In this document: positions 26,941 to 63,467 of the stretch, piece by piece
Layout: every line of letters starts with the position of its first letter
How positions within the stretch are numbered: position 1 is the first letter of the stretch
Source: Chelatococcus reniformis
Lineage (GTDB): Bacteria; Pseudomonadota; Alphaproteobacteria; Rhizobiales; Beijerinckiaceae
NCBI RefSeq assembly: GCF_014640075.1
Contig: NZ_BMGG01000001.1
Location: forward strand, 496,001-560,000
Reading direction: 5' to 3'
Length of the DNA stretch: 64,000 bases
Notes under the pieces: generated by a model
Told to the model about the DNA's origin: nothing
The model's database searches: none
The model's input: the letters and a program-made list of their open reading frames with translations, nothing else
Position numbers and translations under genes: made by a program

Positions 26941-27129
26941 CTACTCAAGATCGATGACCGCTATGCGTTGCCCCTCTTCTTTCGTCACATCGTCGGCTGG
27001 ATCATTTTCGCGCCCAACCGAGCCGTGTGAATTGCCCTGGAGCATTTCGGTTAGGAATACTCCAAGTCTTTGAACCTGGCGCGCTTGTCTTCGTATGGGC
27101 CGGTACTGAACTCGTATGAAGCCGCTCAC
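26941..27129 (-). CDS. small ORF coupled to the end of the assembly-line operon (doubtful)
   Basis: A 62-codon frame that starts with GTG overlapping the TGA of the terminal synthetase gene (GTGA) and ends with TAG. The predicted peptide is Arg-rich at its start (VQYRPIRRQARQ) and acidic at its end (EEGQRIAVIDLE), with no signal peptide or recognisable domain. Third codon positions are clearly less GC-rich than in the surrounding genes, so it is either transferred, a remnant or not coding. The start/stop overlap matches the coupling seen throughout the operon, which is the only reason to list it. Confidence 0.25.
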   Translation of the reverse strand: MSGFIRVQYRPIRRQARQVQRLGVFLTEMLQGNSHGSVGRENDPADDVTKEEGQRIAVIDLE

Positions 27130-30100
27130 GCCGCATCACGCGTGCGCCCCGGCTCATCCGCAAGATAAGGCGCCAGTTGCTGCGCCAGGCGCCTTGCCCC
27201 CTCTGGATCCAGCAGGATGGACATGTGATTTCCCTCCAGATCGACCCGCGTCACGGGTTGCGAGGTGTACCGGTCGAGCTCGCTGTGCAGCGCGTCGGAG
27301 GCGCCGCTTGCGCCGGCCCGAAACAGCACCGCCGGTGACGCCATCATCGTCGGTCGGTAGCGATAGCCCATCACCGTATTGCGGTTGAACAGGCGGAGCG
27401 CGCGACCGACGTTCCGCCAGAACGTCGGCCCCAAGCGCAGCTTGCGCGGCTCCGCCGGCAGCTCGATGCCGATGAGCCGCGCGAGGGCCGCGAGCTCGGC
27501 ATAGGAACGCGGAACACGAACGCTGGCGAGGTAGCCGCCGATGCGCCACAGGCCCTTCGCGTAATTGGCGGGATTGCGCGTTCGCATCGGATTGTCGGTT
27601 TCCATCACGGCGCAATCAAAAAAGGCGACCAGCGCCACAGACTGCCCGGCGGCTTCCAGCTGGCACGCCATTTCGAAGGCGACCGGACCGCCGGACGACC
27701 AGGCGCCGATCCGATAAGGGCCGATTGGCTGCACAGCCCGCATGGCGGCAACGTAGAGGGTCGCCAGTTCCTCGACGGTCCCGACCGGCTCGCTCGCGTC
27801 GAGCAGACCCGGCGCTTGGAAGCCATACAGCGGCTGGTCGAACCCCAGGTGTCCGGCCAGATGGAAATAGCACCACGGACTGCCGCCCGCCGGATGGACG
27901 CAGAAAAGCGGCGCGCTCCGCCCCTCCGGCTGGATCGCCACCAAACACTCGGGAAGCTGAGCATGGTCGCCGGGCGCCTGCGCGTCGATCCAGCCGGCCA
28001 TGCCCGCCAACGTCGGCTTCTCGAACAGAATCCGCAGGGGCAGGTCCACGCCGAAGGTCTCCCGTACCTTGTGGACCAGCCGGGCCGCAGCGAGCGAGTG
28101 GCCACCCACCGCAAAAAAATTGTCGGATGGCTTGAGGCCGCGGCGATCGAGCAGGTCGCCCCAGACGGCCCGCAACCTGTCCGTCGTGTCGCTCGCCCCG
28201 CCGGCGGCATCGGCGGCGCCCACCAGGCCGGCCAGGGCATCTCGGTCGACGCTTCCGTCGGCCGTTCGCGGCAGGACATCGAGCACGGTGAGCCGGCAGG
28301 AGGTCTCGACGCCAAAGGCATCGCGAACCGAAGCGCCCGCCGCCCCGCGCCCGCCGGGGCGCAGGGCGGCAAAGCCGGCGAGTTCGCTCAGGGCGCGGGG
28401 CGGCGTGTTCGATCGCGATCGGATCATCGGTCTTGCCTCGTCCAACCCGATCGACACGGCCGGCATGCCCATGGCGAGCGCCCCATCCAAGGAGGCCAGG
28501 GCCTCGGCGACGGATAGCGCTCGATAGCCGCGAGCCGCCGCGAACTCGTCCTGCCCCATCGCAGCGCTCATGCCGAGATCGCGCCATCGGCTCCAATGGA
28601 TGGTGAACGAGCGGACCCCCGCGCTCCGCTCGCCGAGCGCCGCGTTGCCGAGGGCATAGGCGCCCGCGCCCGTCGCGCCGAACAGCGCGTTGACCGAGGA
28701 CCAATTGACGACAAAGCTCCCCGGCCGGCGGCCCATGAGATCGTTCAGGACGCGCGCGCCGACGGCCTTGGGGCGAAATGCCTCCATCAAGCCGGCCGCC
28801 GTCTCCTCGGCCAGGGATCGCGCAGCACTCGTCCCGGCGAGATGGAATGCGCCCTCGATCGGCCCGCCCAACAGCTCTTCCGCGGCCGCAACGGCTTGGG
28901 CCATGGCCATGTCATCAGCCACATCGGCCTGACGATAGAGGACCTGGGTCGCCGTCTCCGGCGGCCAGAGGGATGCAAAATCGGCAGGACAAGGCTCGCG
29001 GCCGACGATGAGGATGTGGGCCCGGCAGCGCGCCAGCAGGTGCCGCACCACCTGGCGGCCGACTGCGCCATGACCGCCGGTGACGAGGTAGCGTCCGTTC
29101 CAGCGCAGCCGGACGGCATCGTCCCCCGTCACAGCCGCGTCGATGGATTCAAGGCGCGGGACGACACGCCGTCCCTGCCGCCAGGCGCATTCGGCCTCGC
29201 TGCGGCTGCCCACGATCTCGTCCGCGATCCAGGTCCAGCCGCCTTCTTCGCTCGCCGCCGAGTCGATATCGATCTGGCGGCACGACAGCAGCGGATGCTC
29301 GGACGCCGCCGTCCGCAACAGGCCGCGCAGGCCGGCCGCAACCGGATCCACCGCGTCCTCCGCGACGGCAAGGCCCCGGCGCGTCGCCACGACGATGTCC
29401 AGGTCTCGCCGGCACGCCGCCGACGCCTGGAGCAGCGCCAGCACCGCGCCGAAAGTGGAGACCGCCCGGCGGCCGAGAGCGTCGGCATCGGCGTCGGCCG
29501 TGCTCGTCGCCAACCAGCGGAGATCGACGATGCGATCGACCGCTCCGCCGGGCCCGCCCGCGTCGGCGAACAGGGCCGCGTGGTCGGTCTGCGAACCCGG
29601 ATCGAGGGCATAGCGGCGTGGGCCGAGCCGCGCAAACCGGGGGCCCCCTGTCACGCGCCAGACGGGAACGCCCCTCGCCGTCAGCAGTTGCTCGACGGCG
29701 GCGGCGGCTCGGTCGCTCGCGAAGAGGAGGACGCCGCGCGGCATTGTCTCGGGCCGTTCGGCTTGCGACGGCACCCATAACTCGTGATGAAACCAGGCCG
29801 GAAGCGTGGGAGCGCCTGCTTCCGTTTCAAGTCGTGCGGCCAGAGCATTGCGCAGCTGGGTACGCTGGATTTTGCCGCTGGTCGTCTTGGGGAAGGCCTC
29901 CGGCGCCAGGGGCAGCACGTGGGCCGGGGCAAGCCCTGACCGCGCCGCAACCGCCGTCCGGATGGCATCGGCGACGATGGCGGCGTCGGTGCCTTCGCGC
30001 GGCACGAAAAAGACGGCCAGCGCCTCGCTGCCGGTCGCGGCGTCGGGAACGCTGCAAGCCGCCGAAAACGTCGGGCGGACACCATCCACCGTATTCACGA

Positions 30101-32963
30101 TGTCTTCGATCTCGAAGCAATAGAAGTTCGCGCCGTTGACGACGATCATTTCCTTCGTGCGGCCGGTCAGCACCAGCCGGCCGTCGAGGATGAAACCGAG
30201 ATCGCCGCTATTGAACCATCCCCCGCCGGCGAACGCCTCCCGATTGGCTTCCGCGTTTTCGAGGTATCCCGGCGTGATGACGCTGCCCTTGATCTGGAAG
30301 CGGCCGATCCTGCGCTCGGGCAGCACGGCGCCGTCCTCGTCGGCGATGCGGATGGCGACGCCGGGCATCGGCGGCCCCAGCCGCACGAACGCGACCGCGT
30401 CCCGCGCGTCGCCGGCCACGACATCGAGATCGCGTTCGAGCGTGTGCTTGTCGACCCAGACGACCGAGTGCGCCGGATCGAAGTCCGCCTCGTAGGTCAT
30501 GCAGGTGCACGCCTCGGCCATGCCGAACGCGGGCTGCATCACCTGCGCACGCACCCCGAACGGAGCGGTGGCGTGCAGAAACTCCCGGCAGACAGCCAGC
30601 GTGACCTGCTCGCCCGCGTTCATCAGGCTCTTCAGGGACGCGAGGTTCCAGCGGCGCTCCGGCGCGCGCCGCAGCGCAGTGGCCACCAGCTTGAAGCCGA
30701 AATTCGGCGCCCAGCTGCGCGTGACCTGGTAGCGCTCGATGAGGTCGAGCCAGCGCAAGGGGTCGGCCAGCACATCGGCAGTCGACGCCTGCACCTGTTC
30801 GCAGCCCAGATAGACATCGCGCAGATGCCACGTCAGCATCGGCACGACGTGGTCCATCGGCAGCCAGTTCAGCGAAACGTCGGCGGCGCTGTAGCCGGCC
30901 ACCTCGCGGGACCCCTGGATGTGGGCGACGACCCCGCGGTGGGTGATGGGAATGCACTTGGGCGTGCCGGTGCTCCCCGAGCTTAGCTGCAGGAACAGGA
31001 TGTCGTCCGGCTCGGCCAGGTGCGGCGTGGCCAACTGCGGCGCGGCCAGGCGCTCCGCGCAGGCCAGACCCTCGAACGCCAGCACATGTGGGGCGGCATC
31101 GCCATAGCGATCGAGCCCGTGCAACGCCGCAGCGATATCCACAGGCGCGATGATCGGCGGCCGCGCCAGCAGCTCCCACGCGGCGAGCAGTTTGGCGACG
31201 AGCGCCGTGCGCTCGCCGAAGGTGGGGCTGACGGCGACCGTGACCGGCTGCACCCCGGCGAGCACACAGCCCCAGAATGCCGGAAGGTGGCGGCGCACGT
31301 CGGCCAGTTGGAGAATGGCCCTGTCGCCCGGCCGCAGGCCCGCCGCGGCCAATCCGGCGCCGATACCGGTCGCTTCCCGCAGCAGGTCCGCGTTGCTCAA
31401 CCGGGTTTCGGTGCCGTCTGCGGCAACGAACAGCACACCGCGCGCCGGGTACCGCTCGACGGTCCGCAGCAGCGCCTCCGTCATCGACCGCGGGGCATCC
31501 GTCGCGATCGTCAGCGGGCCGCCGTCGGCGAGCGCGGCCGGGCGGCCCCTGTCGCGCGGCGGTGCTTGACGGTCGGGCATATCGCGCCGCGGCGGCAGGA
31601 GCGGCACCGTGACCGGATTTCGCTCCGGCCACGTCATCGGGCGCAGCAGAACAGCCGCTCCCGCTACACCGGCAGCCGCCGAGAGGGCCGCCTCGCAGCG
31701 GCGCGCGAGATCCTCGTCGACCACGGGAAGCTCGGCCAGCGCCGCTTCGTCGACCGTGCCCGCCTGCGTCAGCGCCAGGTTGGTGACGCCAACCCAGTCG
31801 TGCGGTCTCTGCCAGGGCGCCAGGTGCTCGTCCGCGCCGGCGCGCCAGGCTTCGAGCGCCGGCTCCCCGCTCCCGACCACGTAGGCCACCAGCCGCTCGC
31901 GGCCTTGATCGTCACGCCGCGCCAGCACGCGGCAGGCGGCGATGCCGGGCAGGCCGGCGAGCGTCTCCTCGATCGCGCGCAGGCTGATGCGCAGGCCGCC
32001 CTCCCCCGCCCGTCGCACGCCGCCCGCGCGGCGCTCGATCCGGCCGTCCGCGCGCCGCCGCGCGCGCTCTCCGACGGGATGAAGCGCTTCGCCGCCAGGG
32101 CGGCGCACATACAGGTCACCAACGGCGCCTGTGGGTACCGGCTGCCCCCTGCCGTCGAGGATCTGCACTTCGGCGCCGGGAATGGAGGGGCCGTCATCGC
32201 CTGGCTGCAGGAGGATGGGGCCGCCGGCCTCGGGCACATGCCAGAACACATCGGCTGAAGCCGGTGCCGTGTCCGTCAAGGCGCCGGCCGCTCCCGTGGC
32301 GCCGGGTTCGACGTCGACGGTCGCGCCGCGCGTCAGCGGATAGAGCAGCGAGGTCACGAAAGCCGTGTCGTGCCAGGAGCCGGCGAACCGGGACCTGCTC
32401 GTGCCCGCCAGCGGCCGGACCGTTCGGAGCCATGCCAGCCGTTCGGCGACGGCGCGTGCCGGCACGGACACCGGCGACACATCCGGCCAGATCACCGCGA
32501 ACGCTCCCGCCGCGGCGCCCGCCATCTCGCGGCAGCCTGGGGCGGCTTCGAGGCCGTCGTCGGTGATGGTGCAGGCCAAGCCCTCACGCATGCGATCCAG
32601 CCGAAGCGGCGCGTCCTCGGCTTCGAGCGGACACCATGCTGCGCCGGCCTTGGCAACCCCGATCAGCGCCGCGAGGGCCGACGGTGAGCGCCTCACCGCC
32701 AAGCCGACGCACGCGCCGGGACCGACGCCGCGTTCACGCAACACATGCGCCCGAGCGGATGCCTGCTCGGCGAGCTCGGCGTAAGTCAGCGCCACGATGC
32801 CGTCGGTGACCGCCGTGACATCGGGGGTCAGCCGCGCTTGGCGATCGAACAAGGCCACGAAGTCGTCCGCGTCGGCCCGCCCCCGCCCTTCGGCCAGCAA
32901 GCGCGCCAGCAGGGCACGCTTCTGGGCCGACGATGGATCGGGGGTGGTGCCGACGGTGGTCAT
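27126..32963 (-). CDS. terminal assembly-line protein: degenerate A - acyl-AMP ligase - KR - PCP - thioesterase
   Basis: A 1945-residue protein. Domains: residues 38-440, an adenylation-like domain without the GSTGxPKG and YGPTE motifs and without the A10 Lys, so dead. About 480-1050, an intact acyl-AMP-ligase domain with LQLSSGSTGTPKCIPITHRG, FGMAEA and TTSGKIQRTQL (catalytic Lys). About 1080-1470, a ketoreductase with YLVTGGHGAVGRQV, Ser of NWSSVNALFG and Tyr of GAYALGNAAL. About 1545-1580, a stray A10-like segment LPRTADGSVDRDAL. About 1595-1655, a carrier with VGGHSLAAARLV (pantetheine Ser). About 1665-1940, a type I thioesterase with GAWSSGGPVAFE and His of EGNHMSILLDP. It takes the chain from the C domain ending the previous protein, adds a last acid selected by the ligase domain and probably reduced at a keto group, and releases by hydrolysis or cyclisation. 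The start overlaps the upstream stop (ATGA). Confidence 0.88.
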   Translation of the reverse strand: MTTVGTTPDPSSAQKRALLARLLAEGRGRADADDFVALFDRQARLTPDVTAVTDGIVALTYAELAEQASARAHVLRERGVGPGACVGLAVRRSPSALAALIGVAKAGAAWCPLEAEDAPLRLDRMREGLACTITDDGLEAAPGCREMAGAAAGAFAVIWPDVSPVSVPARAVAERLAWLRTVRPLAGTSRSRFAGSWHDTAFVTSLLYPLTRGATVDVEPGATGAAGALTDTAPASADVFWHVPEAGGPILLQPGDDGPSIPGAEVQILDGRGQPVPTGAVGDLYVRRPGGEALHPVGERARRRADGRIERRAGGVRRAGEGGLRISLRAIEETLAGLPGIAACRVLARRDDQGRERLVAYVVGSGEPALEAWRAGADEHLAPWQRPHDWVGVTNLALTQAGTVDEAALAELPVVDEDLARRCEAALSAAAGVAGAAVLLRPMTWPERNPVTVPLLPPRRDMPDRQAPPRDRGRPAALADGGPLTIATDAPRSMTEALLRTVERYPARGVLFVAADGTETRLSNADLLREATGIGAGLAAAGLRPGDRAILQLADVRRHLPAFWGCVLAGVQPVTVAVSPTFGERTALVAKLLAAWELLARPPIIAPVDIAAALHGLDRYGDAAPHVLAFEGLACAERLAAPQLATPHLAEPDDILFLQLSSGSTGTPKCIPITHRGVVAHIQGSREVAGYSAADVSLNWLPMDHVVPMLTWHLRDVYLGCEQVQASTADVLADPLRWLDLIERYQVTRSWAPNFGFKLVATALRRAPERRWNLASLKSLMNAGEQVTLAVCREFLHATAPFGVRAQVMQPAFGMAEACTCMTYEADFDPAHSVVWVDKHTLERDLDVVAGDARDAVAFVRLGPPMPGVAIRIADEDGAVLPERRIGRFQIKGSVITPGYLENAEANREAFAGGGWFNSGDLGFILDGRLVLTGRTKEMIVVNGANFYCFEIEDIVNTVDGVRPTFSAACSVPDAATGSEALAVFFVPREGTDAAIVADAIRTAVAARSGLAPAHVLPLAPEAFPKTTSGKIQRTQLRNALAARLETEAGAPTLPAWFHHELWVPSQAERPETMPRGVLLFASDRAAAAVEQLLTARGVPVWRVTGGPRFARLGPRRYALDPGSQTDHAALFADAGGPGGAVDRIVDLRWLATSTADADADALGRRAVSTFGAVLALLQASAACRRDLDIVVATRRGLAVAEDAVDPVAAGLRGLLRTAASEHPLLSCRQIDIDSAASEEGGWTWIADEIVGSRSEAECAWRQGRRVVPRLESIDAAVTGDDAVRLRWNGRYLVTGGHGAVGRQVVRHLLARCRAHILIVGREPCPADFASLWPPETATQVLYRQADVADDMAMAQAVAAAEELLGGPIEGAFHLAGTSAARSLAEETAAGLMEAFRPKAVGARVLNDLMGRRPGSFVVNWSSVNALFGATGAGAYALGNAALGERSAGVRSFTIHWSRWRDLGMSAAMGQDEFAAARGYRALSVAEALASLDGALAMGMPAVSIGLDEARPMIRSRSNTPPRALSELAGFAALRPGGRGAAGASVRDAFGVETSCRLTVLDVLPRTADGSVDRDALAGLVGAADAAGGASDTTDRLRAVWGDLLDRRGLKPSDNFFAVGGHSLAAARLVHKVRETFGVDLPLRILFEKPTLAGMAGWIDAQAPGDHAQLPECLVAIQPEGRSAPLFCVHPAGGSPWCYFHLAGHLGFDQPLYGFQAPGLLDASEPVGTVEELATLYVAAMRAVQPIGPYRIGAWSSGGPVAFEMACQLEAAGQSVALVAFFDCAVMETDNPMRTRNPANYAKGLWRIGGYLASVRVPRSYAELAALARLIGIELPAEPRKLRLGPTFWRNVGRALRLFNRNTVMGYRYRPTMMASPAVLFRAGASGASDALHSELDRYTSQPVTRVDLEGNHMSILLDPEGARRLAQQLAPYLADEPGRTRDAA

Positions 32964-35900
32964 GGCGTGCTCTCGGCCCCCTCTTCGCCCATCTCCCGAA
33001 GCAGGGCTTCGACTTCCTCGTCACTCAGGCTCTCGATGCGCTTCAGCGCATCGGCAAGGCCGGGCTCCGGGCTCGGCGCCCAAGGCCTGGGGCCGTCGGG
33101 TTCGGACAGCGGCACGCGCGAGAGGGCGATATCGGGGTCGGCGACCATCGCACGCAGGACGCTGGCGAACTGCGTCTCGATGTGGGCGACGGTGGCGCTA
33201 TCGAACAGATCCTTGTTGTAGATGAACGAAACGGACAGGCCGCGATCGGTATCCCAGACGTGGATCTCGAGGTCGAAGCGCACCGTGCCGTTGTCGAGGT
33301 CCCACATCGGCCCAATGCGCAGGCCGCCGGCTTCCAGATCGTCCGCCGGGACCCCTCGCTGCAGCACGAGAATGACGTCGCAGAGAGGATTTCGCCCGGC
33401 CACGCGCGGTGGCTGCAAGTCCTCGACCAGCCGATCGAACGGCAGGTCCTGGTGCGCGAGGCCCTGCCCGACGCAGATGGCCTCACGGGCCAGTTGCTCG
33501 CGCACGGAGAGGTCGCCCGACAGGTCGCTGCGAAACACCACCATGTTCGAGAAGAAGCCGATCAGTCCCTCGATCTCCGGACGATCGCGATTGGCGACCA
33601 GGGACCCGACGATCAGGTCGGTCGCGCCAGTCAGCCGGTGCAGCAGGATCTTGAACCCGGTCATCAGGGCGGCGAACAGGCTTGTCCCCGCCGAGCGGCC
33701 AAGCCCTTTGAGCCCATCCGCCAGCGCTGGCGGCAGCATGACGCTGAAGGCGCCGCCGCGATGCATGGCGGTCGCCGTTCGGGGACGATCGGTCGGCAGA
33801 TCGAGAACCGGCAGGGGCGCGGAAAGATTTGCCGACCAATAGTCGAGCTCTTCGGATGCTCGCTCGCTGGTCAACCAGTCGCGCTGCCATACGGCGAAAT
33901 CGGCATACTGAACGGGGAGCGGCGGCAGCGCGGGCCGGTCGCCGGCGACGAGCGCGCGATAGCTGGCGCCGAACTCCTGCATCAGCACCACGGCCGACCA
34001 GCCGTCCGTGATGATGTGATGCATGGCGACGATGGCGCGGTGCAGTTGCGGCCCCAGCCTGAGCAGCGTCACGCGCAGCAGCGACGGTTGATCGAGAGCG
34101 AAGGCGCGTCCGGCCTCCCCCGCTACGACCTCGTCCACCCGCGCCGTCCGCTCGGCCTCGGGAAGACCTTCCAGATCCTCGAACGCGATCGGAGAGGCGG
34201 CCTCCGCTGCGATCCGTTGCACCGGTTCGCCGTCGACGACGACGATACGCGTCCGCAACGAGCCGTGGCGACGCACGATCTCGGCGAAGGACGCCTCGAA
34301 GGCACCGCGATCGAGCGAACCTTCGAGATAGAGCGAGAACGTGACGGTGTAGAACGCGGATGTCGGATCGAGCTGCGCCAGGAACCACAGGCGGTGCTGG
34401 GCAAACGAGAGCGGCGCCTCGGCGAGGCCCAGGGGCGCGATGCGGGCGGCGGCAGACGCGCTTTCGCCCGACCCGAGCCGCGTGCCGATCACCTCGACGA
34501 GTTGGTCCAGGCTTCCTGCCTGGATCATCTCGGACACCGGCAGATCGATCTCCAGGTCCGTCCGCAGCCGGTTCCTCAACTGGATGGTGACGAGCGAGTC
34601 GAGGCCGAGCTCGACCAGCGGCTGAGCCTGGGCGATCGCTTCACCCGCATCGAGCCGCAGCAGGCGCGCGACGACGCCCTCGAGATAGGCGAGCAGGTTC
34701 GTCTTGCGCACGGCATCGTCGCCGGAGCGAAGGGCGACGCGCAGGCTCGCGAATTTCGCCGCATCGGCCGCCCGTTGCGCCAGGTCGCGCTCGACGTCCG
34801 CGAGCAGCGACAGGCGGCGCGGAAGCCCTTCGAAGTAGAGAGCCCAGGGGAACGGCACCACCCCCACTTCTGGCGAGCCGTCGCGCAGGAGATCGCCGAG
34901 GATTCGCAAACCGGTCTCCGGCGGAATGCTGCCGCCATGGGAGAGCTGAGCCGCCACGGCGCGGCCCGTCGCCATACCGGTCTCGGCCCAGCCGCCCCAA
35001 TTGACGGTGAGGGCCTTGAGCCCCTGCGACAGGCGCAGATGCGCCAGCGCGTCGAGACAGGCGTTGGCTGCCGCGTAGTTCGCCTGTCCGGGCGCGCCCA
35101 GCAGCGAGCCGAGCGACGAAAACATGACGAAGAGGTCGATCTCGCGATCTCGCGTTGCCTCGTGCAGATGCCAGGCGCCGCGAACCTTGCCGGAGAACGC
35201 ACGCGCGATGCGCTGCCGATCGAGCGCCGTCACCACGCCGTCATCGAGCACACCGGCAGCGTGGATGATGCCGCGCAGCGGCGGCATGGCGGCCGCGATC
35301 GTTTGCAGCAGCTGATCGACTTGCGAGCGATCGGCGATGTCGGCCGCGAAGGTGCGCACGTCCGCGCCCGCGGCGCGCAGAACCGCCAAGTCCTGCTCGA
35401 TGTCGGCGTCGGGCGTCCGGCGCCCGACCAAGGCGAAGTGGCGTGCGCCGCGCTGCGCCAGCCACGGTGCGATCAGCCGCCCGATACCGCCGAAGGCTCC
35501 CGTCACCAGATAGGTCGCGTCCGACCGGATGTCCTGGCCGCGTTCGCCCGGCTGCGGGGCCGCCAGCACGAGCTTGCCGATATGCCGCGCCTTCTGCATC
35601 AGGCGCATGGCGTCGAGCGCCTCGCGCGCCGGGTAGACCGAGGTGATCGGACGGCCGAGATCGCCCGCGTCGATATGCTTGAGCGCCCCCGCCAGCAGCG
35701 ATCGCACCAGCTGCGGCTCCTCCACGGCCGTCTCGTCGAAATTGACGATGGCGTAGGCGATGTCCGGGCGCTCCGCCCTGGCCGCCTCGACCGTCCAGAT
35801 GTCGCGCTTGCCGATCTCGACGAAATGGCCGCCGGGCTTCACGACCGAGAGGCTCGCCGGGATCGCGTCGCCGCCAAGGCTGTTGAGCACGATGTCGACG

Positions 35901-38900
35901 CCTTGTCCGGCGGTGGCCGCCATGATGTCGGCCGCAAAGTCGACGGTGCGCGAGTTCATGACATGGCGAATGCCCAGCGAGCGCAGCAGGTCGTGCTTCT
36001 GCGGGCTCGCGGTGGCATAGATCTCGGCGCCCGCCATTTGGGCGATACGGATCGCGGCGAGGCCCACCCCGCCGGTTGCGGAGTGGATCAGCACCTTGTC
36101 GCCGGTTTTGATCCCGGCGAGATGGTGCAGGCCGTACCAGGCCGTCAGATAGACGATCGGCAAGCCGGCCGCCTCCACCAGCGGCATGTTCGCAGGCGCC
36201 TTGAAGACCACCGCCGCGGGCAGCGTCACATGGCTGGCGAAGGTTCCGTAGTGGAGCGCCACGACCTCGTCGCCGGGCCGCAGGTCGGCGACGCCCGGTC
36301 CGACCCGCACGACACGCCCGGAGCACTCGCCGCCGAACGGTCCGGCCTCGCCGGGGTAGAGACCCATGGCGTTGAGCACGTCGCGAAAATTGAGCCCCAT
36401 GCCCACCACTTCGAGCTCGACTTCGCCCGCGGCGGGCCTGCGACGCTCGAGCGGCAGCACCGCCAGCCGATCCAGTCCGTGCTCGGGTGCCTTGTCGATG
36501 CGGTAGGGTGTCGACGGCAGGTCAATGCGCCCGCGATCGGCCTCGTGCCGCCGCAGCCGCGTCACGAGGCGCCCACCGTCGCGATGCGCGACCTGCTGCT
36601 CCGATCCGATCGATGCCAGTTCGTCCACGATGGCGGCGACATCGAGCGGCGCGGCCGGATCAAGATCGAGCGACAGACATGGCATCTCCGGAAACTCGTG
36701 CCAGACGGTCCGCACGAGACCCCACAGCGAAGCCGCCGCCAGATCGCGCACACCGGTCTGCGCATCGATGCCGCCCTGCGCGCCACAGGTGACGACGGCG
36801 AGCGGCACGCCACGCGTCAGATCCGCGGCGGCCATCGCCTGCACCAGCTCGAGCAGATCTCCGGCCGCCTGCTCGGCGCCCTCGGCCATCGATTGACCGG
36901 AGGGCTGTACGGCGCGCAGGTCGGCCACGCCGGCAATCGGGCCCGCGGCCAACGCCTGCCCAAGATCCTCGCCGGACACCGCTACGGCCCGACCGCCGCG
37001 CTCGGTGATGGCAGCGGCAACCGGCGCGGCAGCGCCCGTGCCGCCGTCGACGACGACCCATCGTCCGCGCCCGAACGGAACGGTGGTCGCGGCGGTTTCG
37101 GCGGGCTCCCACACGACGTCGTAGAGCCAATTGTCCACGGCATCGGCAGCCGATTGCAGAACGACGTCTCGCGTCACGCGCCGCGACTGCAGCCCGTCGA
37201 TCTCGACGGCCAGGCGGCCCTCGCCGTCGAACAGGCGCAGGCGCGATTCCTGGTCGCCGGGGGCCTGCGGATCCGGGCCCTCGCTACGGCCCAGCAGTTG
37301 CGCGTGGCACCAGAACGTGTCGGGCGCCGGCGCGTGAAGCGTCAGCCGCCGCAGGGTGACCGGCAAAAACGTATCGCGGTCGTCGCGCGCGCCGAAGGCG
37401 GCGCCCAGGGCCTGAAAGCAGGCGTCGGAGAGCGCGGGATGCAAGTGATAGGCGTTTGCGCTACCGGCCGCGGCCGGTAGCACGATGTGGGCCAGCGTCT
37501 CTCCCGCGCCGGCGCGCAAGGCCCGAATGCCACGAAACGCCGGCCCGTAGTCCAATCCGCGCGAGCGATAATTGGCATAGACAAGGTCGACCGGGAGCGG
37601 CTCTTCGCAGCGCGCCTGCGCATCGTCGAGGTCCTCGACCGGGCTCTCGATCGGCGCCGGCCTCACGGTCCCGCTGCAATGAAGCGTCCAATCGTCCCCG
37701 TCTTCGGTTCCGCTGAAGATCTGAAAACCGAGTTCCCGCGGCCCGGCCGGCGAGAACAGCGTCTGGACGATGCGGTCGCCCTCTTCGGGCAGCGTCATGG
37801 CCTGCTTGAACTGAACGTTTTCGAGCGTCAGCAGTTGGGCGGACAGCAGCCGCGCGCCGCCCGCGAGGGCCATTTCCAGGTAGGCGGCCGCGGGCAGGAC
37901 GGCCGCATTGAACACCCGGTGATCGCCGAGATAAGCCGGGTTGCCGCTCCCCACGATTGCCTCGTAGCGGACGTTCCTGGTGCCCGCCTGGCGAAGCCTC
38001 TGGCCGAGCAACGGGTGGGTCTCGCCGGTGCCGACGCCGCGGACCGGCCCGTCGCCGGTCGCCTTCGGCGCGCTCCAGAACCGGCGGCGCTGGAACGCAT
38101 AACCGGGCAGGCGCAAACGCGTGCGGGCGTGCCCGGCGTCGAACGCGGCCCAATCGATCGGTGCCCCCGCGCAATAGAGCCGGCCGAGGGTGTCGAGCAT
38201 GGATGGCCAGTCCTTCCCGGCCCGCGTCAGGCTGGGCAACCAATGGAGCGCGCTCGGCGCGCCGCCATCGACGGCTTCGCGGCCCAGGCCGCACAGGACA
38301 GGGCGAGGTCCCATCTCCACGAAGGCGTTGGCGCCGGCGGCGACGGCGGCACGAATGCCGTCGCGAAAGCGCACGGGGGCCAGAATGTGCTCGCACCAAT
38401 AGTCGGCGCCGGCGAGCGCCTCGCGCTCGAGCCTGCCGGTGACATTGGAGAGGATCGGCAGGTCCGGCATGCGGTACTGGACGCGCGCGGCGATGGCGCG
38501 GAACGGGCCCACGACCGGCCGCATCAGGGGCGAGTGAAACGCGTGGGACGTCGTGAGCGCCCGCGCCCTGACGCCCCGCCGCTCGAAGGCCGCGGCGATC
38601 GCTTCGACCTCGGCCCGGCTGCCGGAGATGACCGTGCTGGCATCGCCGTTCACCGCTGCGACCGACACCGATGCCGCATGCGGCTCGACTGCGGCGCGAA
38701 CGGCGTCCTCCGCCGCGAAGACGGTCATCATCAAGCCGTCGCGGGGCAGCGCCTGCATGAGGCGCCCGCGCGCCGCGATCAGGGCCAGGCCGTCCTCCAG
38801 CGAGAACACCCCGGCAACGGCGGCCGCGGCGAACTCGCCGACGCTGTGGCCGAGCAGCATGGTCGGCTGCAGCCCCCAGGCGCGCCACAGGTCCGCCAGG

Positions 38901-48867: not shown

Positions 48868-48868
48868 G

Positions 48869-54301: not shown

Positions 54302-54309
54302 GGCTGATC

Positions 54310-57300
54310 TCAATAGTTCAGGGCACGGAGCTCGGCCAGGAGCTCGTCCTCGAGGGGGGACGGACCGCTGGATCCGACCGATCTCGGAGCGGGCGGGAGC
54401 GAAGCCCATTGCACCGCGTCATCGGCGAGGTGGGCAACGAGCGCATCGATCGAAGGAAAGTCGTAGGCGAGCGTCGGCCGCAGCGTCACCCCGAGATCCT
54501 TGTCCAGCGAGGCCTTCAGCTCCAGGTTCATCAGCGAATCGAACCCGAGTTCCTCCAGAGGGCGGCTGGGGTCGACGGCGTGGGTGCGCGGCAACTCCAG
54601 CGACGCGGCCACCAGCTGCGTGACGTGATTGCGCAGCAGACGAACACGGTCGGCCGGGCTCGATCGGTCGAGTTCGTCAAGCAGCGCCGGGCGCGGTGCG
54701 GCCGGCCCCTGCGCGATCGTCCGCGGCGCATCAGCAGGTGCCGACAGCAGTTGCGCCGCAGCGACCACGACGCGCCCCGGACGCTCCAGCAGCAGTCGAT
54801 CGAGGATTGCCTCGGCCGCAGCGGGCTCGATGCAGGCAATGGAACTGCGATCGATGGTTTCGGCCATTCCGGCGCCGGCCCACGGTCCCCAGTCGACGGC
54901 AAGGCCCGGCAGGCCGAGTGCCGCGCGGTGGTCGGCCAGCGCGTCCAGGGCCGCGTTGGCCGCCGCATAGTTGGCCTGCCCGGGGAGTCCGACCACCCCC
55001 GCCGCCGAGGCGTAGAGGAGGAAGAAGTCGAGCGGCCTGTCGCCCACGGCCTCGTGCAACAGCCACCCGCCGGTCAGCTTGGGCGCGAGCGCCCGCCCCA
55101 TGCGCGCTTCGTCCTGGTGCACGATCAGTGCGTCATCGAGAACGCCGGCCGCATGGATGATGCCGGTCAGATCGGCGCACGCTGCCAAAAGCCGCGCGAC
55201 ATCGCCCGGGATCGACACGTCGCATGGCACGACACGCACGTCCGCGCCTGCGGCGCGCAAATGATCGATCGCGCCGCGCGCCGTCGCGGTCGGCTCGCTT
55301 CGCCCTGCAAGCACGATCCGGCGCGCCCCGCGAGAGACCAGCCAATGGGCGGCGTGCAAACCCAGTGCGCCGAGGCCTCCGGTGACGAGATACGTGCCGC
55401 GCGGACCGACGAGGCCGCCCTGGCCCGGAGGCGCCTGCCAGAGCACGATCTTCCCGATGTGATGGGCACGTGCCATGTGCTGAAAGGCGGCCGCGGCGTC
55501 GTCGATCGAGAAGACCTCGGCCGGCAAGGGGCGCAGGGTTCCGTCCTCGAGCCGCGCGAGCAACTCGCCCATCATGTCGGCCACGAGTGCGTGATCCTGC
55601 TTCACGTCCCACAGGTCGAACGGGTGGTACGCGATGTTTCGGCCGAGTGCTGTGACTTGCTCCGCGGTCCAGACGTCCAGCTTGCCGATTTCGACGAACC
55701 GGCCTCCATCGGCGAGCGCTGCGAAGCTGGCGCCGATCGCATCGCCGCTCAGGCTGTTCAGCACCACATCGACGCCGCGGCCGCCTGTCGCCCGGCGGAT
55801 CTCGTCGGCGAACGCGAGGCTGCGCGAATTGTAGACGTGGTCGATGCCTTGGCGCCGCAGGCGCGCCCATTTTCCAGGACTCGCGGTGGCGAAGATTTCC
55901 GCCCCGGCGCGGCGCGCCACCTGGATTGCCGCCTGGCCGACGCCGCCGGCCGCCGCATGGATCAAGACCCGCTCACCGCGCTTGAGCTTGGCCAGCCGAT
56001 CCAGCCCGTAGTGAGCCGTGAGAAAGGCGAGCGGCAGCGTCGCCGCGTCGCGGAACGAGAGGTGATCGGGCTTGGCCACCACGAACGCCGCCGGCACCCG
56101 CACGCGGTCAGCCAGGCTTCCGACCGTCAGGCCGGCGATGATCGGCATGCCCGGCCGCAATCCCTGCACCCCGGCGCCGACGGCCGTGACGATACCGGCA
56201 CACTCCAGGCCGTAGGGCATATGCTCGGCCGACGTGGGCAAGAGGCCCATGCCGTGAAGCACGTCACGGAAGTTGAGGCCGCTCGCGACCGGCGTGACGA
56301 CGACCTCGCCGGTCCCGGGAGCTCCGCCGTCGAACCGCGGTCGCACCACGGTCCTGACCGGCGCTTCGCGCTCCGATGCGGTAGCAGCGAAGACCTGCCC
56401 ATTGCGGACCGCCACCTCCGTGGCGCCGGCCCCACGCAGGAGAAGGGGAGCCAGTTCGCGCGCCAGGTCGACGTTCGAAAGGCCGCCCCTGGCATCAAGG
56501 TCGATCCGAATCAGCCGCAAGTCGGGATATTCGGCTGCCGCGACGCGGGACAGGCCCCAAAGACCGGCTTCGGCCACCGCCGTCACGTCCTCGGTGGTGA
56601 CGCGCTGGCTGCCCCGCGTCACCAGCGCGATGCGCAGGTCCCTGCGGTCCGCAATGCGGCCGACGGCCTGCACCAGGCCGAGATGGCGACGGTAGGATCG
56701 TGGCACCCCGGCCGCGCAATCGGCCGCCTGGAGCGCGAGGTCGACGATCGTGCAGGCGCCGACGGCCGGCCGGGACGCCGCGAGCCACCGCGCCAGCGCG
56801 GGCGCATCGCCCGATACGTCGAAAGGCGCCAGGCTCACTCCATGGCCGCGCTCCATGAGCTCCGTCCGGGCCGCCGATGCCACGGCTTCATCGTCGCCGA
56901 TCAGCAGAATCCGCTGTGGCTGGACGTGCATGTCCTCCACCACGTCGGGCCGCCATACGATGCGCCGGATCGGCATCGGGCCGGAGCTCGCCGCGGCCAG
57001 ATGGTCGGCCTGGCGGATCGACCGGAACGTCACGCCGTCGAGGATCGCCAGAACCTGGTCGCCCTCCATCAGGCGCACGTCGATCTGGCATCGCTGGGCC
57101 GTCGCGGCGCCGCGAAGGCGCAGCACCGTGCGGGCCGACGTGGCACCCGCCGCCTGCACGACGACGCGGTCGATGCCGGTCGGCAGCCAGGTCTCTTCCG
57201 CGGGAAGGCTGGGCAGGATGCAGCTGGCCGCCACCAGGCAGCCGTCGAGGAGCGCCGGATGGATCGCGAAGGGGTCGGCCGCGCCGGCGCAGTCCGGCAG

Positions 57301-60156
57301 TTGCACGCGCGCGGTGGCGAGCAGGCCGCTTCGCTCGACGGTGAGCAATGAACGGAACGCCGGCCGGGCCTCGACCCCGTGGACTGCCAGATCGGCGTAG
57401 ATATCGCTGCCCGGGATGGTCTCGAGCGCGGCCGGCCCCTCGGCGAGCGGCTCGGCGTCGGAGGCCCCGGCGCCGACGGTGTCGGTCAGGCGCGCGGTCG
57501 CGTACAGCGTCCATGCGGCGTCCGAGCCTGCGTTCTCGGTCTGCGCATACAACCGCCAGGCACCATCGGGCGCGACGACGGTCTGGACCTCGACGGTCCC
57601 GTCCGCCGGCAGCCGCAGCGGGCGCACCGCCAGCAATTGCTCGATCGCGCCACGGCCGGCCGCTCGGGCGTTTTGGATTGCGATCTCGACCAACGCCGTC
57701 ATCGGCAAAATGGCCTGGCCGGAGACACGGTGGTCCTGCAGAAAGGCATGCGCGCGGCCGCCGATGGTCAGGCCGAATCGCCGCTCGTCGGTTGCCGCCA
57801 GAGGGAGCGGACGGCCGGCCAGTCCGCCGGGCGAGGCCTCCGCGACGGCGAGGCCTCGCGGCCGCTCGATGAAGTGCCGCTCCCCTTCGAACGGATAGCC
57901 CGGCAGCGCGATCCGAGGGGGCTGGCGCTGGTCGTCGATGGATGTCCAATCGGGCGCCAGGCCTGCCAGATGCAGGTCCGCCCAGCATCGACATCTATCC
58001 GTTCGTGATCCGGCGAGGGCGACGACGTCGAGCACGATGATGTCCTCACCCACCGGTAGAGCGGCGGGCGTATCATCGCGGATCACCAGCTCCCACCAAA
58101 AGGCGGGGCTCGTGACCTCCGCGCCGGCGGCGCGGCCGAGCAGGCTCGAGACCAGGGGACGATTGGGCGGCGACAGCGTCAGTCCGCGCACGGTGCGAAG
58201 GAAGGCGAAGCGGCCGCTCTCGCCGTCCGCCAACGCCAGAACCTGGCTTCGGGCAGCCAGCAGGCGCAGCGCGTCCTCGAGGCTGAAGACGCCGGCCTGG
58301 CAGGCCGCGACGATCTCGCCTAAGCCATGGCCGATCAATTGGTCGGGCACCACGCCCCAGCGCCGAAACGCCGTCGCGGCGGCATAGGCCGTGCGGAAGA
58401 TCGCGAATGCAGGATCGCCTGCCAACGTCACAGCGATGTCCGGGCCGGCGGCCGCGAGCCCTTCCTCGAGCTGCGCCAATCCGGGCGCCATCGCAGCGAC
58501 GGCATCGTCTGCCGCGTCCGGCAGCGGACGGCTCGATGAAAACCGAAATGCGACAGACCGTGAACGCACGCCGGTCGTCGCCGGCGGTGTGAAATCACGA
58601 AGTTGCGCGATGAGCGCGGGCACGGTCTCGAAGACGAAAGCCGCCCTCTCGCCAAGCCGCGCGCGCCCGCCGTTCATGGTCAGCGCGACGGCCGCCCCGT
58701 CCACCGCCGGCGCGGCCGCGAGGGCGTCGGCCAGGCGATGGGCCGCTGCGGCCAGGGCCGACGCCGTATGAGCGGACAGCGTCAACACTTCGGTCCGAGG
58801 GGCGCTCGCCGTGACCACCCGAAGGGGCGGCGCCTCCAGGATCATGTGAACGTTGGTGCCGCTCATGCCGAAGGCACTGACCGCGGCGCGCCGGGGATCC
58901 GGCCCTGTCCACGGCACCGGTTCCACGGCCACCGCCATGTTGATCCGGTCCCATGGGATCAGGGGATTGGGCGTGCGGAAATGGAGGTTGGCCGGCACCT
59001 CGCCGTGGTGCGCGGCGAGAGCCGCCTTGATCAACCCGGCGATGCCGGCCGCGGCTTCCAGGTGACCGAAATTGGTCTTGGCGGAGCCGACGAGCAGTGG
59101 CTGCTCCCGGTCCGTGCCATAAGCATCGCCGAGCGCGCGCAGTTCGATCGGATCGCCGAGCGCCGTTCCCGTGCCGTGCGCCTCGACATAGCCGATCGAC
59201 CGCCCACCCACGCCCGCATCGGCCAGCGCAGCACGAATGACGTCGCGCTGGGCGACGCCGTTCGGCGCCGAAATGCCATTGCTGCGGCCGTCATGATTGA
59301 CGGCGGAACCGAGGATCACGGCAATGACCGGATCGCCGCTTGCGAGCGCGTCGCTCAAGCGCCGCAAGGCGACGACGCCGCACCCCTCGCCGCGAACAAA
59401 GCCATCGGCGTCGGCGCTGAACGTCCGGCAGCGGCCGCTCCTCGACAGGGCCTGCATCCGACAGAGCGCGAGGGTGATTTCCGGCGCGAGGACCAGATTG
59501 ACGCCCCCCGCGAGCGCCCGGTCGCAATCGCCGTCGCGCAAGCTCCGGCACGCCAGATGAACGGCGAGCAGCGACGACGAGCAGGCCGTGTCGAGGGTGA
59601 TGACCGGCCCGTGCAAGTCGAGGTGATAGGCGATGCGGCCGGCTGCCAGGCTTCGCATCAACCCCAGGCCCGCGTGGCCGTCGATCTCGGCGGCCGGGCG
59701 ACGATAGAGTCGCTCCTGCGAATAGTCGTCGGAATAGATGCCGACGAAGACGCCCGTCCGCGTCCCCGCCAGCGACGGGGGAGCCCATGCCGCGTTTTCG
59801 ACGGCCTGCCACGCCACCTCCATCAGGAGGCGATGCTGCGGATCCATGGACGCGGCCTCGCGTCGCGAGATGCCGAAGAAGCTTGCATCGAAGCGATCGA
59901 TGTCGCGCAGCGCGCCCATGTCGCGGCTGTAGGCCTGCCCGGCACCGGATGCGCCGCCCGGGTCCGCCTGCGACCACCGGGCCACCGGAATCGGTCCGAC
60001 GGCGTCGCCGCCTTGGCGCAGGAACCGCCAGTAGCTCTGGGCATCCTCGACCCCGCCCGGAAAGCGGCAGCCGACGCCGACTATGGCGATGGGCCCGCCA
60101 GCCCGGATATCCGGATGGCCGCTCACGTGCGGGACCTGAGGGATCGCCGCGGGCAT
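54310..60156 (-). CDS. type I PKS module: KS-AT(relic)-DH-ER-KR-ACP
   Basis: A 1948-residue protein. KS about 20-440 is complete: DTACSSSLLAVH (Cys about 189), EAHGTGTALGD and KTNFGHLEAAAG. The AT region (about 500-730) is shortened. The GQGxQ motif is absent, the active-site GHSxGE has become GHGLGE (no Ser), and no HAFH/YASH motif is found, so it cannot load an extender. DH about 780-1050: DHRVSGQAILP intact, but HPALLDGCLVAAS lacks the usual Gln/His four residues after Asp. ER about 1265-1570: LNFRDVLHGMGLLP, AAAGGVGQAAI. KR about 1585-1770: YLVTGGLGALGLH, LDD, NYAAANAA. ACP about 1830-1915: LGFDSLMNLEL. The tail PLEDELLAELRALNY probably docks to the helical start of the next PKS. It should perform the first elongation on the starter, with malonyl supplied in trans. 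Confidence 0.92.
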   Translation of the reverse strand: MPAAIPQVPHVSGHPDIRAGGPIAIVGVGCRFPGGVEDAQSYWRFLRQGGDAVGPIPVARWSQADPGGASGAGQAYSRDMGALRDIDRFDASFFGISRREAASMDPQHRLLMEVAWQAVENAAWAPPSLAGTRTGVFVGIYSDDYSQERLYRRPAAEIDGHAGLGLMRSLAAGRIAYHLDLHGPVITLDTACSSSLLAVHLACRSLRDGDCDRALAGGVNLVLAPEITLALCRMQALSRSGRCRTFSADADGFVRGEGCGVVALRRLSDALASGDPVIAVILGSAVNHDGRSNGISAPNGVAQRDVIRAALADAGVGGRSIGYVEAHGTGTALGDPIELRALGDAYGTDREQPLLVGSAKTNFGHLEAAAGIAGLIKAALAAHHGEVPANLHFRTPNPLIPWDRINMAVAVEPVPWTGPDPRRAAVSAFGMSGTNVHMILEAPPLRVVTASAPRTEVLTLSAHTASALAAAAHRLADALAAAPAVDGAAVALTMNGGRARLGERAAFVFETVPALIAQLRDFTPPATTGVRSRSVAFRFSSSRPLPDAADDAVAAMAPGLAQLEEGLAAAGPDIAVTLAGDPAFAIFRTAYAAATAFRRWGVVPDQLIGHGLGEIVAACQAGVFSLEDALRLLAARSQVLALADGESGRFAFLRTVRGLTLSPPNRPLVSSLLGRAAGAEVTSPAFWWELVIRDDTPAALPVGEDIIVLDVVALAGSRTDRCRCWADLHLAGLAPDWTSIDDQRQPPRIALPGYPFEGERHFIERPRGLAVAEASPGGLAGRPLPLAATDERRFGLTIGGRAHAFLQDHRVSGQAILPMTALVEIAIQNARAAGRGAIEQLLAVRPLRLPADGTVEVQTVVAPDGAWRLYAQTENAGSDAAWTLYATARLTDTVGAGASDAEPLAEGPAALETIPGSDIYADLAVHGVEARPAFRSLLTVERSGLLATARVQLPDCAGAADPFAIHPALLDGCLVAASCILPSLPAEETWLPTGIDRVVVQAAGATSARTVLRLRGAATAQRCQIDVRLMEGDQVLAILDGVTFRSIRQADHLAAASSGPMPIRRIVWRPDVVEDMHVQPQRILLIGDDEAVASAARTELMERGHGVSLAPFDVSGDAPALARWLAASRPAVGACTIVDLALQAADCAAGVPRSYRRHLGLVQAVGRIADRRDLRIALVTRGSQRVTTEDVTAVAEAGLWGLSRVAAAEYPDLRLIRIDLDARGGLSNVDLARELAPLLLRGAGATEVAVRNGQVFAATASEREAPVRTVVRPRFDGGAPGTGEVVVTPVASGLNFRDVLHGMGLLPTSAEHMPYGLECAGIVTAVGAGVQGLRPGMPIIAGLTVGSLADRVRVPAAFVVAKPDHLSFRDAATLPLAFLTAHYGLDRLAKLKRGERVLIHAAAGGVGQAAIQVARRAGAEIFATASPGKWARLRRQGIDHVYNSRSLAFADEIRRATGGRGVDVVLNSLSGDAIGASFAALADGGRFVEIGKLDVWTAEQVTALGRNIAYHPFDLWDVKQDHALVADMMGELLARLEDGTLRPLPAEVFSIDDAAAAFQHMARAHHIGKIVLWQAPPGQGGLVGPRGTYLVTGGLGALGLHAAHWLVSRGARRIVLAGRSEPTATARGAIDHLRAAGADVRVVPCDVSIPGDVARLLAACADLTGIIHAAGVLDDALIVHQDEARMGRALAPKLTGGWLLHEAVGDRPLDFFLLYASAAGVVGLPGQANYAAANAALDALADHRAALGLPGLAVDWGPWAGAGMAETIDRSSIACIEPAAAEAILDRLLLERPGRVVVAAAQLLSAPADAPRTIAQGPAAPRPALLDELDRSSPADRVRLLRNHVTQLVAASLELPRTHAVDPSRPLEELGFDSLMNLELKASLDKDLGVTLRPTLAYDFPSIDALVAHLADDAVQWASLPPAPRSVGSSGPSPLEDELLAELRALNY

Positions 60157-60159
60157 GGA

Positions 60160-61920
60160 TTACGCCGCCACGGGCGTCGCCCGATCGCGCTCGACGGCGC
60201 CGATCGCGGTCAGGTGCTGCACCAGCGCGGCAAGCGTCGCGGTCTCCCACACCAGTGTGGGCTCGAGGCCGCACCGGAGATGATCACCCAGTTCGCGTGC
60301 CAAGGCGACGCCGAGGATCGAATCGAGCCCGTACTCCGCAAAGGAGCGGCCCCCCTCGACGGTCCCCGCCCCCAGATTCAAACGGCGTTCGAGCCACCGC
60401 GCGACCCACGCCTGCGTCTCGGCCGCCGTCGGCGCCGTCGTCACAGGCCGCGCGACCGGACGATGCGCCGCCGCCCGCAGCTCGCGCTTCAGGATCTTGC
60501 CTGTGGGATTGCGCGGCAAACGGTCGGCGAAGGCAATGACGCTCGGCACCTTGTAGGCAGCGATTGAAGCCCGGCACAGGGCCTCGAGCTCCTCCGGGGC
60601 TTGAGGATGGCTGGGGTGAAGAACGACCGTCGCCCAGACCTCCTCGCCGAGGAAAGGATCCGGCACGCCAAAAACGGCGGCTTCCGCGACGCCGGGATGG
60701 CCGTAGAGCACGTTTTCCACTTCGGCCGGGTAGACATTGCGGCCGCCGACGATGATCAGGTCGGTCAGCCGATCTTCGATGCTCAGATAGCCATCGGCAT
60801 CGAGGCGTCCGATATCGCCGGTGTGGAGCCAGCCGCCGCGAAGCGCCCGCGCGGTCTCTTCGGCGCGGTTCCAGTACCCGCTCATGACGTTAGGCCCTCG
60901 CAGCAGGATCTCGCCCGCCTCGCCGGGGGCTACATCCCGATCATCCTGCGGGTCGACCACGCGCAGTTCGACTTGCTCGATGGGCGTGCCGACGCAGCCC
61001 TCGCGGATCGCGATCAAGTGGTTGTAGGTCGCGAACGGCGAACATTCGGTCTGGCCGTAGCCCTGGTAGATCGGCCGTCCCATACGCTTGGCCCAGCGCT
61101 GCTCCACCTCCAGCGGGAGAGGTGCCGCAGCGGAAAACCAATATCGGACGCCGGCGATATCGAGATCGGTCAAGTGTTCCTCGAGCGAGAGGAAGGTCGT
61201 CGGCACGCCGAATACCATCGTCACGCCGTCGGCCCGAAGCGACCCGATCACCGCCTCCCGATCGAAGCGCCGTTGAAGCACGACCGACGCCCCCGCGCAG
61301 AACGCGGCGTTCATGATAGCGTTCTGGCCAAAACAATGGTGCAGCGGCAGGAACAGGAGCAGGCGGTCGTCGGGGCGAACGCCCATGTAGCGCACCTTGG
61401 AGCGCGCCGTGAAGTCGACGTTGCCATGGGACAGCACGACGCCCTTGGGACGGCCCGTGGTGCCGGACGAATAGACGATGACGGCAGGATGGTCGGGGCC
61501 GACGCCGACGGTTGGAAGCGGGGGATGGCCCGCGACAGGCGCATCCACCTCGAGGCGCCGGATACCGCGCCGCGCAAAACGCTCGTCCAGATTCGCGTCG
61601 GCGAACGCCGCCTTGCAACCGCTGTCGTCGAGGATGAAATCGATCTCATCCGCCGCTAGCGCCGGACTGATGCAGACCGCGACGCAACCGAGGCCAAGAA
61701 TTGCAAGATAGGCAACGACGAAAGCGGGACTGTTCGACATGGCCAACGCCACATGGTCGCCGCGGGCGACACCGGCGTCGGCGAGCAGGCGGCGCAGGCG
61801 CGCCGCTGTTTCCGCAACGGTTGCATAGGAGATCGCCTCGCCTTCGAAGTAGAGGCAAATGCCGTCACGCGGGCCGCATTCGACAGAGTTTGCGACGTTC
61901 ATGCCGCGATCGGTCGTCAT
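60160..61920 (-). CDS. loading protein: acyl/aryl-AMP ligase fused to an acyl carrier protein
   Basis: A 586-residue protein. The adenylate-forming domain (about 1-490) has IVYSSGTTGRPKGVVLSHGN, YQGYGQTECSPFATYN, TGDIGRLDADGY, DLIIVGGRNVYPAEVE and NPTGKILKRELR (catalytic Lys). The sequence is of the long-chain-acyl/4-coumarate-CoA-ligase type; it lacks the insertion and HDMGL-type motif of true fatty acyl-AMP ligases. Residues about 505-575 are a carrier domain with EYGLDSILGVAL (pantetheine Ser). It probably activates a carboxylic acid, loads it on its own carrier and passes it to the first KS. The ATG at 61920 follows GGGAG with eight bases; an upstream TTG is less likely. It is the first gene of the operon, three bases before the first PKS gene. 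The ammonia-lyase gene nearby makes a cinnamate-type starter plausible. Confidence 0.9.
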   Translation of the reverse strand: MTTDRGMNVANSVECGPRDGICLYFEGEAISYATVAETAARLRRLLADAGVARGDHVALAMSNSPAFVVAYLAILGLGCVAVCISPALAADEIDFILDDSGCKAAFADANLDERFARRGIRRLEVDAPVAGHPPLPTVGVGPDHPAVIVYSSGTTGRPKGVVLSHGNVDFTARSKVRYMGVRPDDRLLLFLPLHHCFGQNAIMNAAFCAGASVVLQRRFDREAVIGSLRADGVTMVFGVPTTFLSLEEHLTDLDIAGVRYWFSAAAPLPLEVEQRWAKRMGRPIYQGYGQTECSPFATYNHLIAIREGCVGTPIEQVELRVVDPQDDRDVAPGEAGEILLRGPNVMSGYWNRAEETARALRGGWLHTGDIGRLDADGYLSIEDRLTDLIIVGGRNVYPAEVENVLYGHPGVAEAAVFGVPDPFLGEEVWATVVLHPSHPQAPEELEALCRASIAAYKVPSVIAFADRLPRNPTGKILKRELRAAAHRPVARPVTTAPTAAETQAWVARWLERRLNLGAGTVEGGRSFAEYGLDSILGVALARELGDHLRCGLEPTLVWETATLAALVQHLTAIGAVERDRATPVAA

Positions 61921-61973
61921 CGAACGTGCTCCCAAAATCTGTTATTTTTCAGCCACTTCAACCGCCCGGCCAG

Positions 61974-63249: not shown

Positions 63250-63467
63250 GGCGAACCGATGCGACAACTTGCCAAGACGATGACCAGCGCCGACACTGAC
63301 ATGCACAACCTCATTCGATCACGAGCCTTCTTTAACCTGTACCCATTCGTTGAGTGCCGGAAAAGCCTCTGTGCCGTCAGCGTTGCGGTGCCTTCACGAG
63401 CGCGCTCGCGCGCCCACTCCACACGCGGCGACGCCTGTGCGGCGCCCACCAGCACGAGACGGTCTGC

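Follow-up and report, generated by a model that had tools for sequence, protein, structure and literature searches.

In cryptophycin, a PKS-derived chain is esterified to a hydroxy acid. StsA has a keto-acid adenylation (A) domain in which the Asp that binds the amino group is replaced by the hydrophobic I306 and a Pro by M415, according to the available part of PMC11253843. ColG and LynB3 are described, in the portion of PMC10127204 at hand, as interrupted A domains with a methyltransferase. Borrowing of acyltransferase (AT) activity from primary metabolism is reported for the didemnin, thalassospiramide and FK228 lines in the accessible part of a 2017 review (PMC5577590). In that part, whether such borrowing is a common alphaproteobacterial theme is a question left open.

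Parts of these known kinds occur together, in a combination new to us, in the 64,000-nt stretch of Chelatococcus reniformis DNA analysed here (the window). We consider it probable that the locus is a complete orphan hybrid PKS/NRPS cluster whose route leads from a phenylpropenoate to a hydroxy acid. Its genes are intact and collinear, their domains and active-site motifs are identifiable and the cluster is conserved in genomes of the genus Xanthobacter. Coordinates are those of the window; window-extended numbering continues past its right edge and was read from stretch L039.

Organization of the megasynthase genes

All six genes, and the domains described below within them, lie on the (-) strand. 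Gene 1 (P0001, 591 aa, 60160-61935; orthologs 62-64% identical) encodes an AMP ligase and an ACP. It is followed by gene 2 (P0002, 1948 aa, 54310-60156; KS-AT relic-DH-ER-KR-ACP; orthologs 56-57%), gene 3 (P0003, 1846 aa, 48869-54409; KS-AT-DH-KR-ACP; 61-62%), gene 4 (P0004, 2715 aa, 40720-48867; C-A1(FkbM methyltransferase)-PCP-Cy-A2(Ox)-PCP) and gene 5 (P0005, 2587 aa, 32960-40723; KS-AT-DH-ER-KR-ACP-C; 66-67%), all assigned with Pfam. In gene 6 (P0006, 1945 aa, 27126-32963; 54-55%) the order is ghost A-keto-acid A-KR-pseudo-A C-part-PCP-TE, the Pfam profiles detecting AMP-binding in two stretches, then KR, PCP and TE. The likely start of gene 3 is the ATG at 54301, inside a longer ORF ending at 54409; with this start the intergenic spacings from gene 1 to gene 6 are 3, 8, 1, -4 and -4 bases. 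A previous sequence-only reading of the window had proposed this domain order, on one strand with gaps of 1-8 bases or 4-base overlaps, and both are borne out by the Pfam assignments and spacings. That reading had put the end of the line at 61920; gene 1 has two candidate ATG starts, there and at 61902, in an ORF reaching 61935.

Frameshifts breaking the genes, a concern raised in that reading, are absent from all six ORFs. Five copies were compared: those of the window, of Xanthobacter autotrophicus AM3 and of three further genomes of the same genus (G165, G169 and G162). All six genes are open and collinear in the latter three, which together with matches such as that of gene 4 to AMP-binding (E 3e-153) places the domain calls far beyond chance. 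Active-site columns are intact in the five copies (four for the N-terminal parts of gene 4), the AT relic of gene 2 being the exception. The five copies rule out broken genes or an artefact.

Accessory genes and cluster extent

The six genes stand as first delimited, but the cluster boundary does not, since further genes belong to it, mostly beyond the window. A patatin-like hydrolase gene (patatin1, 25858-26853, (-)), 71% identical in AM3 and G165, lies at the operon end. Its product weakly matches the NCBIfam CBASS phospholipase model (76 bits for a cut-off of 200). The operon extends upstream of gene 1 with a type II thioesterase gene (62491-63306, (-); 55-60% conserved), to which an aromatic amino acid lyase gene (window-extended 63468-65003, (+), of which 63468-64000 lie in the window) is divergently oriented; neither of the two is mentioned in the sequence-only reading. 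The lyase gene adjoins an ABC1/UbiB-family kinase gene (window-extended 65000-66736, (+); 68-69% conserved). To the right of the window edge are also found two glycosyltransferase genes flanking an NAD epimerase gene, an alpha/beta hydrolase gene, a second patatin gene and a gene for an MFS-type transporter, identified as such through the AM3 ortholog. The extended cluster runs from 25858 to about 74183 in window-extended coordinates. The epimerase and the second glycosyltransferase (window-extended 68148-70540; 8149-10541 of L039) are absent from the stretches of the relatives. A HlyD-type adaptor and an AcrB-type RND pump adjoin the cluster on the other side (21425-25773, (+)). The pump was rejected as a cluster member: at E 1e-30, neither the AM3 flank nor the G165 stretch, which continues for about 11 kb beyond the patatin gene, contains a match to it, and the comparison rests on these two, the G169 and G162 stretches stopping at the patatin gene.

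Neither a phosphopantetheinyl transferase (PPTase) nor a trans-AT is encoded in the window, as the sequence-only reading had noted; the three PPTase-family matches of the genome and one short AT sit on other contigs. Of the genome's ten AT matches, six belong to another multi-module PKS line on contig 7 (about 274800-317900), which has a PPTase-family match at its end. On contig 6 (about 3850-37400) there are NRPS/PKS genes, one of whose frames, of 2727 aa, contains an AT, and a PPTase-family match at 6122.

Conservation and distribution

The gene order patatin2-MFS-hydrolase-glycosyltransferase-ABC1-lyase-type II thioesterase-genes 1 to 6-patatin1 is kept in the same orientation in all three of G165, G169 and G162, where identities range from 54 to 79%. 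In AM3 the cluster falls on two contigs, with the middle part of gene 4 missing. AM3 and its three congeners share six megasynthase and eight accessory genes in the order of the window, and differ from the window's genome in that the additional glycosyltransferase and NAD epimerase genes are inserted in the latter. The domain order, which the sequence-only reading did not recognise as that of a known pathway, is thus not unique, being present in full in Xanthobacter-genus genomes.

Scanning 84,980 species genomes with a single pattern yielded eight candidate stretches and one relative, located in X. autotrophicus AM3. A close relative of gene 6 was detected in five of 14 Xanthobacter-genus genomes (as a fragment in one, G164), in three of the 119 genomes of a family sample and in neither of the two congeners of the window's genome. 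The sample of the window's own family gave eight matching genomes out of 60 at E 1e-60, namely the window's genome and seven whose match (213-292 bits) is confined to the ligase part, and in the order sample the window's genome was the single match among 101, with no other carrier; the family samples and the order sample each cover a small share of the respective group. The GC content of genes 1-6 is 70.2%, compared with 63.9% for positions 1-21000 of the window. The Xanthobacter-genus copies (71.8%) likewise lie above their flanks (68.0-69.8%), so that the GC difference is an ambiguous sign of horizontal transfer.

Starter loading and the residues predicted for gene 4

The AMP ligase (about 60496-61875) and the ACP (about 60211-60393; PP-binding) recognised by Pfam in gene 1 agree with the acid starter proposed earlier. 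The nearest solved structures of this loader are those of feruloyl-CoA synthetase (8wev and 8weu, E 5e-89), and the NCBIfam model that it matches best, with a score under the cut-off, represents a long-chain-fatty-acid-CoA ligase family. The neighbouring lyase carries the MIO motif ASG at residue 150. At the catalytic-site position where HutH has a Glu (HAL type) it has a Gln, as in PAL/TAL-type enzymes, and its selectivity pair is F-H in the three copies in which it was read (window, AM3 and G169). Among NCBIfam models, that of the tyrosine ammonia-lyase BagA/FevW fits it best, far under the cut-off, and it passes the cut-off of none; among solved structures, histidine lyases (HutH) come closest to it. 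It is the only MIO lyase found in the window's genome, it occupies the same position in all four relatives and its identity to them (77-79%) is the highest among the cluster genes. With such a lyase in the cluster and a loader whose nearest solved structures are those of feruloyl-CoA synthetase, the starter is likely cinnamate or coumarate.

Orthologs of gene 4 are 65% identical and of full length in three genomes, the AM3 one being partial. An FkbM methyltransferase domain (PF05050; 45328-45891) is inserted within A1, past motif A8, and its SAM motif DVGANIGLF is identical in three relatives. Assigned by motif position, following GrsA numbering, the A1 code is D-T-K-D-L-G-L-V-D in the window and three relatives, which we take to be Glu-like. 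The A2 code, assigned in the same way, is D-L-F-Q-I/V-S-Q-I-N and otherwise invariant in five copies. It differs from the usual Cys code and presumably corresponds to a Cys-lineage pocket with three to four changes. A nitroreductase-family oxidase (Ox; 41329-41847; 58-60% identity in relatives) lies within A2. Together with the Cy motif DxxxxDxxS, this provides two hallmarks of an azole module and supports the heterocycle-forming Cy-A(Ox) unit read previously.

Loss of the AT active site in the first PKS module

The AT relic of gene 2 (57877-58599) is recognised by Pfam as a fragment of 61 residues only. The stretch from the KS linker to DH measures 261 residues in gene 2 versus 395 in gene 3 and 391 in gene 5, so that about 134 residues are missing. 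The Ser site reads GHGLGE in the window and GQGAGE in the four relatives, the catalytic Ser being absent from all five copies; the relic suspected from the window is thereby substantiated. An active AT, expected in every extension module of a cis-AT line, is lacking in module 1 and found in genes 3 and 5, which keep the catalytic Ser. The gene 3 AT carries the motif VPAHS and that of gene 5 HAFH, which we take to be a malonyl-AT motif. The relic is 41-43% identical to its relatives versus 61-71% for the live AT domains. It is not the sole fast-changing part, DH1 (44-48%) and the structural half of the gene 6 KR (41-43%) being comparable.

Since the catalytic Ser is lost in all five copies, malonyl for module 1 should come in trans. 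The cluster encodes no stand-alone AT. Of the ten AT matches obtained in the genome at E <= 1e-10, nine belong to large frames; the tenth, a stand-alone frame of 358 aa on contig 5, is FabD-like by size only. Alternatively, the AT of gene 3 could supply module 1. The remaining catalytic sites of module 1 (Cys/His/His of KS and those of DH, ER, KR and ACP) are intact in the five copies, suggesting that the module is probably in use despite its dead AT. In the DH of gene 5, N or D replaces the motif Gly in all five copies, which makes full reduction by this module uncertain. In that of gene 3, S replaces the motif Gly in one relative.

A remnant adenylation domain in the terminal module

Gene 6 aligns with StsA (chain 6ulw) over about 880 residues (E 3e-145). 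Its keto-acid A domain (29709-31496) has a Val at the I306-equivalent position and a Met in the FGM motif, and both selectors are present in the five copies (alignment to 6ulw/6ulx). A KR (structural and catalytic halves, 28569-29681; PF08659, E 5e-29, and StsA alignment) is located between A and PCP, and its Lys, Ser and Tyr occur in the PK, WSS and AY motifs of all five copies. The C-terminal piece of a putative split pseudo-A-sub, with an A10-like motif (28269-28406), a PCP (27987-28181; Pfam) and a thioesterase (27159-27911) with Ser in AWSSGG and His in GNHMS complete the protein. The StsA alignment, the selector residues and the Lys, Ser and Tyr of the KR indicate that the expected substrate of gene 6 is an alpha-keto acid, converted by in-line reduction into a hydroxy acid with which the C domain of gene 5 could form an ester. 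The sequence-only reading had predicted such a terminal hydroxy acid, and the pairing of a keto-acid A domain with a KR lends sequence support to it. However, what it had listed as a dead A domain, an AMP ligase and a KR, as separate parts, is a single StsA/cereulide-type module flanked by pseudo-A sequence. A chimera of a dead A domain and a fatty-acid ligase is excluded by the StsA alignment and the keto-acid residues. Because the terminal stretch is a known module type, the domain order is less odd than first thought.

The approximately 490 residues that precede the keto-acid A domain show two separate matches to an ordinary A domain, at 17-122 and 286-414 (compared with LgrA). This ghost of an A domain (31704-32861; P0006 residues 35-420) includes A1-A2 and A-sub parts and is devoid of A3, the ATP motif, which is absent from all five copies. 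Pieces of the pseudo-A-sub were found by sequence both before A and after KR; the predicted structure of residues 1-490 has a pLDDT of 45, too low to judge the split pseudo-A-sub. Among the seven keto-A/KR modules compared, a number that leaves out loci L060 and L061 (no KR match), three have an A-sub match before the keto-acid A domain (E 0.01) and none has the A1-A2 part. The ghost domain bears on the origin of the split domain in depsipeptide synthetases.

Proposed pathway and alternative explanations

In the proposed route, the lyase would make cinnamate (or p-coumarate) and gene 1 would load this acid as the starter. Module 1 (gene 2), with its own AT dead, would add a fully reduced two-carbon unit from malonyl supplied in trans, and module 2 (gene 3) an enoyl unit. 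Gene 4 would first add a Glu-like residue, which its FkbM domain would methylate, and next a Cys/Ser-type residue that Cy would cyclise and Ox would oxidise to a thiazole or oxazole. Gene 5 would add another ketide, mostly or fully reduced, and its C domain would esterify the chain onto the alpha-hydroxy acid obtained on gene 6 by activation and reduction of an alpha-keto acid. The TE would then release the chain, the glycosyltransferase might decorate it and the MFS protein might export it.

Two steps of this route admit another explanation. The lyase could be a histidine or other lyase located there by chance, gene 1 loading a fatty or other aryl acid. A histidine role would be in keeping with HutH as the source of the nearest structures, with the failure to pass any NCBIfam cut-off and with the lack of another such lyase in the genome, and a fatty starter with the fatty acyl-CoA ligase model that best fits the loader. 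Yet the lyase has kept its site in all four relatives with the highest identity of all genes, and it has the PAL/TAL-type Gln rather than the Glu of HAL, so that we regard a starter other than a phenylpropenoate as rather unlikely. Similarly, the chain could pass over module 1, giving a product one ketide shorter, as might be expected from the Ser lost in every copy, the missing residues and a window without a stand-alone AT. This appears improbable to us, because the intact KS, DH, ER, KR and ACP sites would be hard to maintain if unused and because other alphaproteobacterial lines work without an AT of their own, as stated in the part of PMC5577590 available.

It is also unlikely that the cluster corresponds to an already characterised pathway. 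Although 2,076 records of a plasmid collection match gene 6, none reaches at least 60% identity and one covers at least 80% of it. A literature search covering mainly open-access journals gave no description of the cluster among the matches listed.

A tentative history of the locus can be outlined, to which we give somewhat less than an even chance. The line would be a conserved mixed-supply system, in which the AT of module 1 was exchanged for malonyl in trans (most likely from fatty acid synthesis, through FabD) before the lineages of the window and Xanthobacter split, the shortened AT being kept as a spacer. Gene 6 would represent the least eroded known stage of split pseudo-A-sub formation, the core of its A domain having been gutted after a keto-acid A-KR cassette landed there. 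For Xanthobacter-genus bacteria, some of which can be cultured and are not pathogenic, the cluster offers a complete and conserved orphan pathway that is open to testing, with a predicted starter, azole and hydroxy-acid end.

Comparison with known systems

As in ColG and LynB3, the methyltransferase of gene 4 sits inside an A domain, here after A8, but it belongs to the FkbM family (PF05050) and interrupts a Glu-like A domain. Gene 6 shares the keto-acid A-KR-T arrangement with StsA and cereulide synthetases, as well as both selectors, with Met at the M415 position and a hydrophobic residue at that of I306. It differs from them in that it ends a PKS/NRPS line, possesses a TE and retains the A1-A2 part of the host domain. 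The terminal module of Nostoc ATCC 53789, which we take to be cryptophycin CrpD, shows the same order as here (C, pseudo-A-sub, keto-A, KR, PCP and TE). However, it is only 28.6% identical to gene 6, its C and keto-acid A domains are on one protein and it has no A1-A2 remnant. Among the plasmid loci compared, the closest keto-acid A domain (47% over the domain) is found on plasmid pTM3 of Tistrella mobilis, the didemnin producer. The didemnin line is reported, in the part of PMC5577590 consulted, to take its AT from fatty acid synthesis, which recalls the AT-dead module 1 described here. In contrast, the line of the window keeps its own AT in two of its three PKS modules and, with one dead and two live AT domains, provides a direct test of AT borrowing in alphaproteobacteria.
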